A DNA stretch of 64,000 nt from Heliocidaris erythrogramma. Taxonomy: Eukaryota > Echinodermata > Echinoidea > Camarodonta > Echinometridae. Shown piece after piece: positions 379 to 33,336 of the stretch. Position 1 is the first letter of the stretch; each line of letters begins with the position of its first letter. Position numbers and translations under genes: made by a program. The notes under the pieces were generated by a model. It did not search any database, had not been told where the DNA came from, and was given only the letters and a program-made list of their open reading frames with translations. The DNA lies in assembly GCA_025617745.1 (NCBI GenBank), contig CM046867.1, forward strand, positions 28,574,705-28,638,704. Reading direction: 5' to 3'.

Positions 379-3300
379 CAGTCATGTTGACTCAGGGCAA
401 GCTCTCGCATGCCACGGCTCAGAGTCCAGGACTCCCCAGTACTTACGTCACCGATAAAGTCCATTGCAAGCCCGATGTTACCTGAGCTGATCTCGATGCA
501 ACCATGGAAGCTGGGGAAGCAGTCCTCCCTGCCGAGAACGTCAAGGATGAAGGCTTCCACTTCGATGGCGTTCACCTGTCAGGTTAAACAAGTTACACAA
601 CATTTAAGCTATGACGGTAGTTACAAGTTCATGATTCTCTTTCCTCTGTCATTGTCTGTCGCTAGTATACAATGCCAATCAATATTATCTTTGATATATA
701 TCGTCAGCTAAAAGCCAGACAGACGTTAATCTTTGCAAAATTGTTATGAATTAATACCCTTTATTGATCAAATTTCTCATCTACGAGTAATGATTGCATC
801 AGTGCCTAATTTCAATTGTGTTGTCTGAACATCTCTCTTATGCTACTGATTTACGACATAATTAGAATAATACCAACCTTCGATGTCATCTTCTGGGGCC
901 GTATTCTGAAAACGGTGTTATCTTTTGTGTTAAGGAAAACTGTGTTAATTGCCATAACAAATTGAAATTGCGCGCAATAAACACTAATCATTGGTGCTTG
1001 CGCAGATGTCTCTGTTAACTATACGCGGCACAGCCATTTTTGCGCAATCATTAACCAATGACCTGTCCTGATTTTGATTTGTTATGACAATTAACATCGT
1101 TTTACTAACATAAAAGATAACACCGTTTTCAGAATACGGCCACTGGATGTCATTCGGAAGTACGAAGGTTTTCAGAGCGATGGGCTGATCGGTGACGCGA
1201 TGACGGAACAGATAGACAGTTCCGTGGACCCCGCTGCCCAAGACGACATCGCCACCTCCTTGGTGGAATGACTTCAGGTCACCCATTCCCCACACGTAGG
1301 AGGAGGCTGGGGCTGGGGCTGGGGCAGCTGCTCTGCTCGAAGGCGAGGTGGCTCCACCAACAGCCGCACTCACTGATGGAGATCTAGAAATAGAGAGAAA
1401 TAGGTGTAAGTTTGAAAGTAGAATTTAGTGCTTTCGAATCAACTGACAATTAGTTGGCACAAGAAGTTATATATATTTTTTATTATTGTAGTATATGGTG
1501 TTGGATCAAATTTGCCAACAAGTTTGCCAAAGATTTTTTGAAGCTCTAAAAGAATAAAATTTCAAATTCGCCGACAATAGGAGAAAAAAATACTAAAAAC
1601 AAAAACGATTGTTGGATTTGCTCACTAAGGTTAAATTTGGCCAATGTGATTTTAGAATCTGCTACCTATGGGGTAAGGAAGGTTTTCCAATTAGTCAAAT
1701 TCAGAACCAAAAAAGGGGGAAGGGTAAAGTTTGTCTTACCGTGAATTGCGTGGTGTATGATGGGGAACCACAGGGGCTTGAGCAGAAAGGGGCACGGTGG
1801 GAGGGGTACCAGTTGGAAGGGTACCAGGACCACTAGCCTGTGGGCTGGGGCTCGGTAGTCTAATAAGAGAAAAGAGGAACAACTCATAATGTCCCTCCTA
1901 CACGTATCATTAGTTTTTCTTATATTTCAGACCATACCATTAGCGGGTTCAAGGGGGCACAAACAATTTAGTGAGTGCCTCTCTCTACCTCTTTTATCCC
2001 CTTTGGAAATTTTCGCCGAGACATTTTTTTAGACGGCTTCTGCCACTATGTTGCACTATCATGCTTCATCATTGAAACTGACTGAAATTAAAGAGCTGTT
2101 AAAGTAGGCTTATTTTTACTAGATATTTCCTTCGGTTGTTTTCATGTACATTTATTTATAAAGTAGCGATATATTTGGATTAAGGTTTAGAATGGTTGTT
2201 GTTGGATTTTTATTTATTTATTTACTTTTTTTTTTAATTCTTACGGGAGGGGTAATGGGGTGGTGTCGATTGGGGCTGTGTCTGGGGTAGATGGAAGGTA
2301 TGGTGCTGTATCTGGTGTAGATGGGTTGTATGGTGCTGTGTCTGGTGTAGATGGATGGTATGGTGCTGTGTCCGGTATAGATGGGCGGTATGGTGCTGTG
2401 TCTGGTGTAGATGGGTGGTATGGTGCTGTGTCTGGTGTAGATGGATGGTATGGTGCTGTGTCTGGTGTAGATGGGTAAGTGGTGGGTGCTACTCGGTTGT
2501 CTAAAGGTGCTGTAGAGGGTGTTTCGGGATTATCTCTAGAACACCTGTTCGACAAGGACAAAAACAACATTATAATACTTCCATAAAGATAATGTGTGAG
2601 TGTGTATCTCATCTGCATGTCTTGATATTGATTGTATGAAACATTACAAGGGAAATTGGGATTTTCCTTCAAATATATTATGAGGGTTTGAATTATAACT
2701 ACCCTGTACTTTTAATGTTAAGAGCTTTTGCAGTAAAATACTTTCAAAAGCGTATGATTTTTTGTTGTTGATATTTACCAAGAGACACGAGAAGTCAGCC
2801 CGCCAGCGGCAGGAGGAGAGAGGACGGTTGGCTGCCAAGTCAGGTCCTGAAAAGAGTTTAGAAGACAAACTTATAAACAATTAGGCCTATGTTTTACTTA
2901 TGAACATAAGTGATTAAAAATTCGACAACATGAAAAGAGAGTAAATTACGATGGATATTCATGCTTGTATTTATACATTATTTTGCCCTGTATCATTCAT
3001 ATTCATTTTATCTCAGAACAAAAGAAAAACAATGGAAAAAATATACAAATTGGGCCATTATTATTTTCAAACTAAATACAAAAAATGTATAAAAATAACG
3101 ATAATATTTAAAAGTAAATAGTATACTTGGAGATTCTGAACAGCATCATCACGTTGCTGTCTGGCCTGGGCCAGCTCAGTCTTCAAGTCCTGGATCTTCT
3201 TGGCCTGGTCCAGGAACTTCTCCTGGAGAGCCTTGGTCCTCTTCTCTGCTGCCTGAGTTCTTCTCTGCGACTCCTTCACCTGAGAACTGATGTTGGTAAT

Positions 3301-4520: not shown

Positions 4521-6178
4521 TCGCCTAAATCTCTATTTCAAGTGATATTATATAGAAACTGTGATCTAAATTAAGGGGATAAAGTGGGGAGATAAGAGAA
4601 GAAAAGATAACAGGAGATGAAATAGAAATAGCGGTTTGCGGAAGACTAGCAACGGTGGCAGGGTGTATGACCCACCTCCCCCCCCCCCCCCCTACACGGA
4701 AAGAAAGATATGGGGGGATGAAATGTAAAGAGGAGATTATACCTCCCGGCCCCTCCCTTACCCTCCCCGCACATTTGGCATTGTTCTTTATTTCGCCCCC
4801 CCCCCCCCCCCCCCCCCCACCTCCACCACGGCATGACAGTAGCTGAAACTACGTTGAGCCCCTGAAGACTAGTGATAAGGAAAGGACATTGCTGCTAATG
4901 TCTTCTGTAGAAGCTTAACTACCGACTTTCTTTCTTTTCTCCCCCCCCCCTTTTTTTTTTTGGGGGGGGGGGCAAATTATTATAATCATTAATAAACATC
5001 TTTCACATGCGTTATATCCGGTACCGGTACCGCATAAGTTAACATTTCCCTGAGTTAACGTTGAAATCTACGGCCATACGAGTAATGTTGTGTGCATGTT
5101 TGGAAAAATATCAACATATTATTTGGTTATAAAATGTGGAATATTTATCCGATTTTATCCAAACTTGCTCAAGTTATTCAATAATGATTAAGAATAAAAT
5201 ACTGACCTGGCGATTGGATATGAGAGCTTTCGAAAGCAAGCAAAATAGTCAAAAACCGTCAAAAAATTTGGCAGTAAGATCTCTAGATCGCATAAGTTGC
5301 AAGAATGTGGTTTGTTTACATTTTTGTTACCAGGCAGGGCGTTAGGGTATAGGGCGCGGTCACTGAAATATGGGTGCGCGCAAAATAAAGTATACAAAGC
5401 GCAGCGCGTTCATTGTCATTGTCATTGTCATTGGTCCACGTTGGCGTCAAACGCTTCAACCACGCCCTTCCACGCCCTGCCACGCCCTGTGGTAAGCGCA
5501 ATACGCAGCTAAGCCAGTGCATGGTGATGAGCCTGGCATTGACACTTGCCAATGTCAATGTTATTACGTCATCGCAGAGCAACATAACCAACCAATAGTG
5601 GAGCTTAAATCTTGCTTATTTTGAATATTCATGACTTTAGTCGCCAATGAATATACTTTCTGAAATAACCATAGTTCCAATTTTGTTTTGCGATATGTTT
5701 TATCCCGGGGGGGGGGGGGGGGGGGGTACTCACATATATTGGGTATACGGGGACGTGCCGCTGGGAAGGGTGACTTTTTGAAGAAAAATCCTTAGACATG
5801 GGTCCCCTTTTCATTAAAAAGACCCTTAGACATGGGTCCCATTATCCCCCCAAAAAATCCTTAGACATGGGTCCCCTTTTCATTAAAAAGATCCTTAGAC
5901 ATGGGTCCCATTTTCCGGAAGAAAATCCTTAGACATGGGTCCCATTTTCCCAAAAAAATGTTGTCCCTTTATTTTCTCCAAAGTCCTGTGTGAGTGCTTC
6001 TTATTTCTTTCTTCTTCTTTTTTTTAGCTAAATGAAAATAAAAGGAATAAAACTTAATTGTTTTCTAAAGGAAAAGAAAATTTATCCCACATTTACCCAA
6101 TCACAAAACGCCTAATATTCATTGGTGGTGCATCGTTTTTAACCAGTCAGAACTGGTTTCTTTTATTCTTTATTGCAG
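4521..6178. other. Intergenic region with simple repeats
   Basis: It holds C/G homopolymer runs (about 4679, 4798, 4941-4972, 5706-5726), a CATTGT microsatellite near 5412-5432, and a minisatellite at about 5783-5950. No convincing coding exon was seen. The kinase-gene promoter should lie near the right of 4520, but no core element is recognisable. Confidence 0.5.
5783..5950. repeat. Tandem minisatellite (CCTTAGACATGGGTCCC units)
   Basis: CCTTAGACATGGGTCCC recurs five times at roughly 32-35 bp spacing. The spacers alternate between CCTTTTCATTAAAAAG-like and CATTTTCC-like sequence. Confidence 0.8.
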
Positions 6179-21500: not shown

Positions 21501-24500
21501 GAAAACAAAAACCTAATCATGCATCCGAGCTTTACAAATTTAGCGATTTTGTTACTAGCAGCTTATGACTAATGCTATCGTCTACATATCCATCCTTCGC
21601 ATTCTCACTTCTCCACCTTCCATGCCTCTTCCATAATCTGTCCGGCACAGATACCCTAGCAGCAGCCGTAGCACCTCCGGCCCTGAGTGAATGTAACCCC
21701 AAATTAGCTTGACCACATACTTCTCCCAACCTTTTTACTACCGTTTCACAAGCCCTTGAATAACTGATTTGCTTATTTTTCTTTATCAAATTTCTTTTCC
21801 CTTTATTGCTATAGGCAGGCTTAAATAAATAATGCTCTGAACCCTCTACACTGCCGGCTAACTCAATGTACTTCTTCAATACCTTAACAGGGCAGGCACT
21901 AGAATGCCCTTCACTTATCAGAACAGTATTACCTTTTCTATACTGATCCGTTTTACTCTTTCGGATATTAACTGAAACAAAAGAATCATGAAATTCAATA
22001 TCTGAAACCCTGAGAGATTGAACCTCATCAAATCTTAGAAAACCTGCGTAACTGATTACAATGAAAGCTAAATCCCTCCAAATCAGTATGTCTGACGACT
22101 CCTGATATTTGTCACAAAGCTCAGTTATCTGATCGTTTGTTACTATATCCTTCTTGACCACTGGCCTCGAGTTCAGCCTTTTCGCACTCTCAATAAGATT
22201 TTTCACGAATGCGTTGCCAGTGGGATCCGACATACCTGAAATGCTGTGAGCCCACTTAATGCTGTAGAGAGCTGATTGAAAATCGAACCTTGAAAGCTAC
22301 GAGATTAAATCCTCTTGTACCCTTTCCAAAAATCCCGTTTTTGCCTTTACCACCATTTACCATCTTTGAGGAGAAAATTTCATATTCCTTAATAAAGGCA
22401 TGAAACTTGTTGCCATCCCAAACCTTTGGCCAGAAATTTGCAGATTTCCATAAAGGTACACTAAACGTGCCACTTGCCTTTTCTCATACGATCTTATTCA
22501 CTACTTTTGCGATCAGACGATGCGGTGGAACCCACCAATTTATAGTTCCATTCCAATTTTGTGAGAATGCATCAACAACGCTTGTTCCTATGCACCACCA
22601 TCTAGAATTAAACATTTCACACTTCGTATTGTAATTGCTAGCGAACCTGTCGCACACATGGTGACCCCATTTCTCCTCTAACCGAAAGAAAATCGACCAA
22701 CTGATATGCCAGTCGTCACTATCACCGACTCGACTGAGTCTATCTGCTGTCTTATTCTCGTTTCTTGGAATCTACACTGATTCCATCTTCACATTCTTGT
22801 GTTCACAAATATCACTTATTACCATAGCTTTCCTCTGAAGCTCAGGGTTTCCACTCCCTGCTCTCACTATTCTCATAGCATTTTTGTTATCTGTATACCA
22901 CCGTACGTGAAGCCCTTCTAGGCAAGATTCTGGAGTCATCACCAATCTCACACAAGCCTCTAACTCTCTCCACGTAGAGCTCTGAACCTTTTCTGAATCT
23001 GACCAGGTTCCAACAATTTCTATGTCACAACCATCCACATATCTCATCATCCGAATCTTCAGCCAGGTCGTTTCTAACATATTCGTCCACCGTTGCCCAG
23101 CCTCCCTCCGAACTATCCGCTAATTTGATTAACTTTTGCGTAGAATCAACCAACTCCATACCTTCAGCCAGCTTGGCCCTCGCTTCCTCCTTGGCGCCAA
23201 CCTGCTCTTCTCTCAAGAGGACGTCAGCCTCCTTCATTTTTCGGTAAACCTTCGCGTTGACTTTGTATTGTTCCTCGTGCCCACGACGTCGAAATTTATA
23301 CTCATCTTTGTTAACTTCCTCTATTTTTGCTAACTGCATATCACTCAGTTCACGCTGGTTCTTTTGGAAGTCCCCAAGCTTTGCTGATATCAAATTATCG
23401 AGCTTGTTTAATAAACCAGGCTGGCTCTCCCTAATTTTACTATCCACCAGGTCTTCGAAGTCGGACGGCTCCATTGTGCGTCGAAGAAAGCAAGCTAGAA
23501 TGACATGCCCAAGGCGTCTCCACTCTACACGAGACATCATGTCTCATGCTTCAATGCTCCAGCGCATTCTTAACCACATTCCCCGAAAGCTTTGAACCTG
23601 TTCGAGCATTGACCACGCATCTCCATAATGTATGCGCACATAAACGAAACAAACAACATTTACCTGCTATACAAACGTACCGTAGGTAAATAATATTCCT
23701 CTGTCTTTATTCAATACGGTTCAAGTCCATTCAAAACAACTTATTGGTAAAAAAAGATACCTTTCGCAGACCTGATGGGGCCAAATTACAGATTTTTGTT
23801 ACAAAGGAAAAAACATTCATCATACACAGAATACAAAACTTTAGTGATACATTTTTACATAAACAAGAGAGAGAAATTTATATATGAAAAATTAAGTATT
23901 AATTCTATTGAAATTATATTAGTATTTTGATAATCTTACGATTAATTAGAATTAAAGATTGAATACAGTTAACCTTGCATAATTCAAAGTTGCATTATGT
24001 CTTATTTTGTTATTTTTGTACTTTTTTATGAGGGCTTCTGTGCTGAGTGGGATATATTGTGCCACTTTGCAGGAATAAAACACATGAATGTGACATAATA
24101 CTAATTGTACAGTGATAATCATAATAATAATATACCACCTTTCCAGTTAAGTAAGTGATCAGAACACTTTACAGTGTATTATTATCTCCGTCATTGGATT
24201 CAAGTACGATTCTGCACACATAGTGCACATTCGCCACATGACTTGGGAGCAATCCGACGTAGCAACCATTTTACAGGCGCACATAAGCTATTCAAGCCAC
24301 ATTGACGTTTGCATCCCACTGGGTACCCATTTAACACCTGTGTGGAGAGAAGCAATGCAATCGCCTTGCTCAAGGACAAACAGTTTACACTAACATGTAT
24401 GACATTACCTCAAAATGAACTGCTAGAGCTTTAATGCTTTGAAACGGGTCAACCTGGCCCAGTCAATCTGTAGCACTAGCAAACCACATTTCCCTTACAT

Positions 24501-32967: not shown

Positions 32968-33119
32968 CGGAATGGCCACAAACAGTAGTTAGATTTGAAA
33001 CTGAGCCCTGCCATAATCATATGTCGAAATTCCATGGATAAAGTTACTGGTACAGTGAAAACTTGTTATAAAGAGCTCAGATATAACAAGATTCCTTAGG
33101 TAAATTTGCTGGTCCCTCT

Positions 33120-33336
33120 GGCCGTATTCTGAAAACTATGTCAACTTTTATGTTAGTAAAATGATGTTAATTGTCATAACAAATCAAAATCAGGACAAGT
33201 TATTGGTTAATGATTGCGCAAAGATGGCTGTGCCCGCGTAAAGTTAACAGAGACATGCGCGCAATTGCAATTTGTTATGACAATTAACATAGTTTTCCAT
33301 AACATAAAAGATAACATAGTTTTCAGAATACTGCCC
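33120..33336. mobile_element. MITE-like element, second copy of the family inserted in the kinase exon
   Basis: It starts GGCCGTATTCTGAAAAC and ends TTTTCAGAATACTGCC. The inside matches the reverse complement of 897-1142, including TTAATTGTCATAACAAATC. Confidence 0.85.

Follow-up and report, generated by a model that had tools for sequence, protein, structure and literature searches.

How did a short foldback sequence come to lie inside the coding exon of a kinase-like gene, and what may be left of that gene once it is transcribed? The question is raised by a locus close to one edge of a 64-kb stretch of Heliocidaris erythrogramma DNA, the whole of which is referred to here as the window. A preliminary description of this stretch had proposed that a MITE interrupts a protein-kinase coding exon and that the affected allele is null, polymorphic or rescued by splicing.

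The interrupted gene and its reading frame

The interrupted gene is located on the minus strand, a point which had not been made in the preliminary description, and extends past the edge of the window at position 1. With exon boundaries placed by eye at splice-like sites, four minus-strand exons are visible. Exon D (2245..2544) precedes exon E (1740..1859), the upstream neighbour of the interrupted exon, the final two bases of which belong to a split codon that is completed by exon F. The 5' part of the interrupted exon F (1143..1383) encodes a serine/proline/alanine-rich linker, the glycine-rich loop LGSGVHGTVYL and an ALK lysine and continues to NDIQ, and its 3' part (878..892) encodes KMTSK and is followed by the donor AAG/GTTGGT. 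Exon G (379..575; VNAIEVEAFILDVLG...) starts in phase 0 and is presumed to cover the region from alpha-C to the hinge, including the presumed alpha-C glutamate. Exon D also harbors a coding minisatellite, a 30-nt tandem repeat (positions 2271-2474; 6.8 copies, 90%) that encodes an in-frame 10-residue repeat of the STPDTAPYHP type.

Removal of the element together with one copy of the flanking CTGG yields an exon F of 256 nt (1383..1143 plus 892..878), and exons D-E-F-G, when joined in this way, are open over 290 codons in one of the three frames, the remaining two containing several stops each. The proposal that the shortened exon would be in phase with both of its neighbours is thereby borne out, and the joined translation reads NDIQKMTSK at the junction, just as had been predicted. 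If the element is kept in, the frame ends at a TAG at 984..986 on the minus strand, after 52 element-derived residues and before exon G is reached, in agreement with the stop that had been expected near position 984 ahead of the alpha-C helix.

The gene is likely to encode a kinase, an assignment that draws mainly on exon F, in which the glycine-rich loop and a VAIK-type lysine (IALK) are recognized by inspection. Compared to the Pfam Pkinase profile, the joined reading gave E=0.0088 (15.9 bits, residues 47-87; below the curated cut-off of 31.7), a longer joined protein gave E=0.027, and the reading with the element gave E=0.04 (13.8 bits, residues 47-78). With the 118 joined residues as query, phmmer returned 31 PDB sequences at E<=1, of which 28 are kinases and three are ATC/carbamoyl-phosphate-synthase chains. 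The best match was MAP3K2 (9p6a; E=0.024, 17.9 bits), which aligned with query residues 14-81, from the glycine-rich loop across the junction to past the alpha-C glutamate, with a single gap at query residue 71 and none at the junction. When the left half was used alone, CDK9 was the best match (E=0.068) and MAP3K2 was not found in the best 60 of 84 matches. The reading with the element, in which residue 48 is the first to be element-derived, gave 27 matches, again lacking MAP3K2; the kinase alignments terminate between residues 40 and 52, at most five residues into the element-derived part, and three ATC/carbamoyl-phosphate-synthase chains align as far as residue 61. Exon G alone retrieved four PDB matches at E<=10, none of them a kinase.

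The joined reading resembles the MAP3K2/MEKK2 kinase domain in its glycine-rich loop, its AxK lysine and the ungapped spacing across the junction to the presumed alpha-C glutamate, but with only 17.9 bits and an E-value of 0.024 the alignment is suggestive rather than strong support for the junction, and two exons are too few to assign a family within the kinase superfamily. The kinase C-lobe would be located beyond the window edge, as would the HRD and DFG motifs. That part of the earlier claim which concerned a MITE in a coding exon is supported by the inverted repeats, the second copy described below, the restored frame and a weak protein alignment that is ungapped at the junction, whereas the term 'protein kinase' is to be read as probable, given 15.9 bits compared to a cut-off of 31.7.

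Structure of the element and its probable insertion site

The MITE-like foldback element occupies positions 897..1142 (246 nt). Its left terminal inverted repeat (897..932, plus strand, 36 nt) pairs with the right one (1106..1141, minus strand), 35 of the 36 positions (97%) being complementary, and a second inverted pair with 83% complementarity is present further inside (933-968 and 1071-1106). The symmetric inverted repeat comprises 245 nt (897-1141), A1142 being needed only for CTGG to flank the element flush. Folded as single-stranded DNA, the element forms a near-complete hairpin (z = -13.8) of a stability which was equalled in none of 200 shuffles. Its longest open stretch in six frames measures 52 codons. 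Hence, the element is short and non-coding and ends in terminal inverted repeats, as is characteristic of MITEs, and the earlier observation of inverted ends with CTGG on both sides is confirmed.

The two CTGG copies (893..896 and 1143..1146; CCAG on the gene strand) are a putative target-site duplication. In 20000 random placements, a flush 4-mer repeat arose by chance in 399 cases (about 2%, allowing 0-1 nt slack on each side), and the CTGG pair taken by itself is therefore modest evidence, which favors a target-site duplication without establishing it. Another direct repeat, the 8-mer ATGACATC on the gene strand (minus), flanks the element at 1153-1146 and 889-882, with a spacing of 264 nt. 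A shared 8-mer within 22-nt flanks was found in 228 of 20000 random placements, and this pair is probably a coincidence. An alternative empty site bounded by the two ATGACATC copies was rejected by exon-length arithmetic, since exon F would then no longer be in phase with exon G and since KMTSK, which aligns with MAP3K2, would be lost.

A BLAST search of the window with the element identified a second copy at 33119..33335 on the minus strand, which is 80.6% identical and in opposite orientation to the first, indicating that the element is a repeat. This copy lies about 32 kb from the first, has unlike flanks and, relative to the first copy, exhibits a 30-nt gap in the left half/arm. It is not bordered by a clean four-base target-site duplication, as one side has TTGG and the other has A and then GAGG. 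These two copies within the 64-kb window have their ends in common, and a 17-nt end motif occurs four times in the window at <=3 mismatches compared to 0.17 expected occurrences. The end pattern had no match in viral_contigs or genome_contigs; a shorter version produced a single viral_contigs match (L001), which showed no further likeness in 401 bases and was taken as chance. Rfam at gathering thresholds gave no match in the window, and ARAGORN predicted no tRNA or tmRNA genes there. In the literature searched, the end motif did not occur, and no published account of this element was found at the level of listings.

Can splicing remove the element?

Exact removal of the 250 nt by splicing was rejected, as none of the five possible registers has canonical intron ends (CC-CC, CA-CC, AG-CC, GT-CA and TG-AG). 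Imprecise removal is offered more opportunities: the interrupted exon contains 99 in-frame stop-free GT-AG pairs, and 30 such pairs are confined to the element and the CTGG copies. On the minus strand, a candidate intron 1109-893 (TAT/GTTAGT ... CCCCAG/A), the acceptor AG of which is supplied by the duplicated target, would add the 11 residues WPYSENGVIFY. A candidate intron 1062-906 (CAG/GTCATT ... TTTTCAG/A) would add 31 residues, and a third one, 1143-906, would add four residues from a very weak donor. Scored with a donor matrix, the three candidate donors reach 3.0 (1109), 4.9 (1062) and -1.2 (1143), whereas three of the donors used by the gene itself reach 5.2, 8.9 and 10.1. In the shuffle test, the best in-frame pair within the element was 1109-893, while 1062-906 was marginally best under a slightly different acceptor score. 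Of 1000 dinucleotide-shuffled versions of the element, 192 had a pair that scored as high as 1109-893 or higher, and 769 contained at least one in-frame stop-free pair. If the top-scoring pair of the entire exon, 1373-893, were used, both the glycine loop and the lysine would be removed. Skipping of exon F would also lose the ATP-binding lysine, and dropping only the original 256 bases would be out of frame. Hence, in-frame pairs exist, but they are no better than shuffle level; together with the weak donors this leaves no above-chance reason in the sequence to expect splicing to rescue the gene, and a rescue is not supported.

Possible explanations and consequences for the gene

The loop between beta3 and alpha-C varies in length among kinases. 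It might be speculated that the spliceosome removes most of the element imprecisely and that the element is tolerated because only an in-frame peptide is left in this loop, for which the pairs available within the element would provide the sites. There is a precedent for this reading in the introners of other eukaryotes which, according to the available portion of PMC9860276, carry splice sites in their target-site duplications and in some cases add 12 bp. However, the frequency of equally good pairs among the shuffles, donors that score below those of the gene, the cost of the highest-scoring pair to the glycine loop and lysine, the lack of canonical ends for exact removal and the loss of the same lysine upon exon skipping all argue against it, and we regard such a rescue as unlikely. 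Even further from what we expect is the related notion of an incipient animal introner, in which the downstream end of the element brings a usable 3' splice site and the upstream half lends a donor. In that case, the 3' splice site would be either the AG within the duplicated CCAG or the TTTTCAG in the terminal repeat, a new intron would have been gained directly from a MITE, and the kinase would tolerate a short in-frame peptide between beta3 and alpha-C. The same portion of PMC9860276 describes introners with terminal inverted repeats and 4-bp target-site duplications, e.g. in Symbiodinium, and introners of Aureococcus that add 12 bp; their splice sites come from either the element or the duplication, and among animals and land plants introners are reported there in only two groups, both of them animals. 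The locus is similar in that an element with terminal inverted repeats is located in coding sequence between the copies of a putative 4-bp duplication, one of which could supply the AG, and differs from the introners as described there in having no above-chance splice sites, no exact in-frame intron and a single known genic copy.

A conserved intron of the ordinary kind, which resembles a foldback repeat by accident, would fit the location of the element inside a multi-exon gene. This explanation is exceedingly improbable, as exact removal lacks canonical ends, the sequence is a repeat with another copy in the window, and a short direct repeat bounds it. Expanded kinase families occur in many lineages, and the locus might instead be a decaying paralogue or pseudogene within a multi-copy kinase family, in which the insertion is fixed and neutral. 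The divergent kinase match (15.9 bits for Pfam Pkinase) and the partial view of the gene are compatible with this idea, but the 290 codons over four exons without any other stop or frame break, the conventional splice sites and the failure to find the kinase exons a second time within the 64-kb window (E<=1) render it improbable. Such a further copy might also have served as a witness of the empty site.

We thus consider it quite probable that a MITE has inserted into the coding exon of a kinase-like gene and that the result is most likely a loss-of-function haplotype, with truncation and probably mRNA decay and segregation. A non-autonomous terminal-inverted-repeat DNA transposon (MITE), its transposase presumably supplied in trans, would have inserted at a CTGG/CCAG site in the minus-strand gene and duplicated this 4-bp target. 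Transcripts of the haplotype would read through 52 element codons into the stop ahead of the alpha-C helix, the truncated product would be left with almost none of the catalytic domain, and the mRNA might be subject to nonsense-mediated decay; in combination, truncation and candidate decay make loss of function the most likely outcome. No other damage is seen in the visible exons and splice-like sites, and the coding frame, preserved elsewhere in the visible part, leads us to infer that the insertion is recent or is carried as one allele; the interrupted haplotype probably segregates with an uninterrupted one. With regard to the outcomes proposed earlier for this allele, the null state is what the stop at 986-984 directly predicts, while the rescue by splicing finds no backing in the canonical ends, which are missing, or in the candidate pairs, which remain at shuffle level.

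Insertion of a MITE into an exon is an ordinary and well-known kind of mutation, which is cleanly visible here. Similarly, exon 6 of a wheat 5-formyltetrahydrofolate-related gene contains a miniature TE-like sequence of 307 bp in two accessions, as stated in the available portion of PMC6824096. Both cases have a short TE-like element inside an exon, and compared to that portion of the wheat account the present one differs in concerning an animal kinase-like gene and a 4-bp CTGG duplication. The locus is a naturally occurring candidate for loss of function, the empty site of which can be predicted, the interrupted exon may be used as a presence/absence marker, and the site represents a test of how the animal spliceosome responds to the insertion of terminal inverted repeats into an exon.

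Other features of the window

Several further features were noted in the window. A tandem array at 5780-5949 has a 34/69-nt unit containing CCTTAGACATGGGTCCC. On the minus strand, an open reading frame at 21532-22296 matches a tyrosine recombinase (Pfam Phage_integrase, E=2.9e-11) and lies beside two more minus-strand open reading frames of >100 aa (22772-23119 and 23025-23543); the arrangement of this group (21532-23543) is one that we take to be that of a DIRS/Ngaro- or Crypton-type element. Finally, the plus strand between about 41950 and 61500 contains open reading frame pieces, three of which were scanned, with Sushi, HYR and ephrin-receptor-like domains. Such domains, like the intron-exon structure, give the window an animal-like character, and the pieces suggest the presence of one or more genes for extracellular mosaic proteins.
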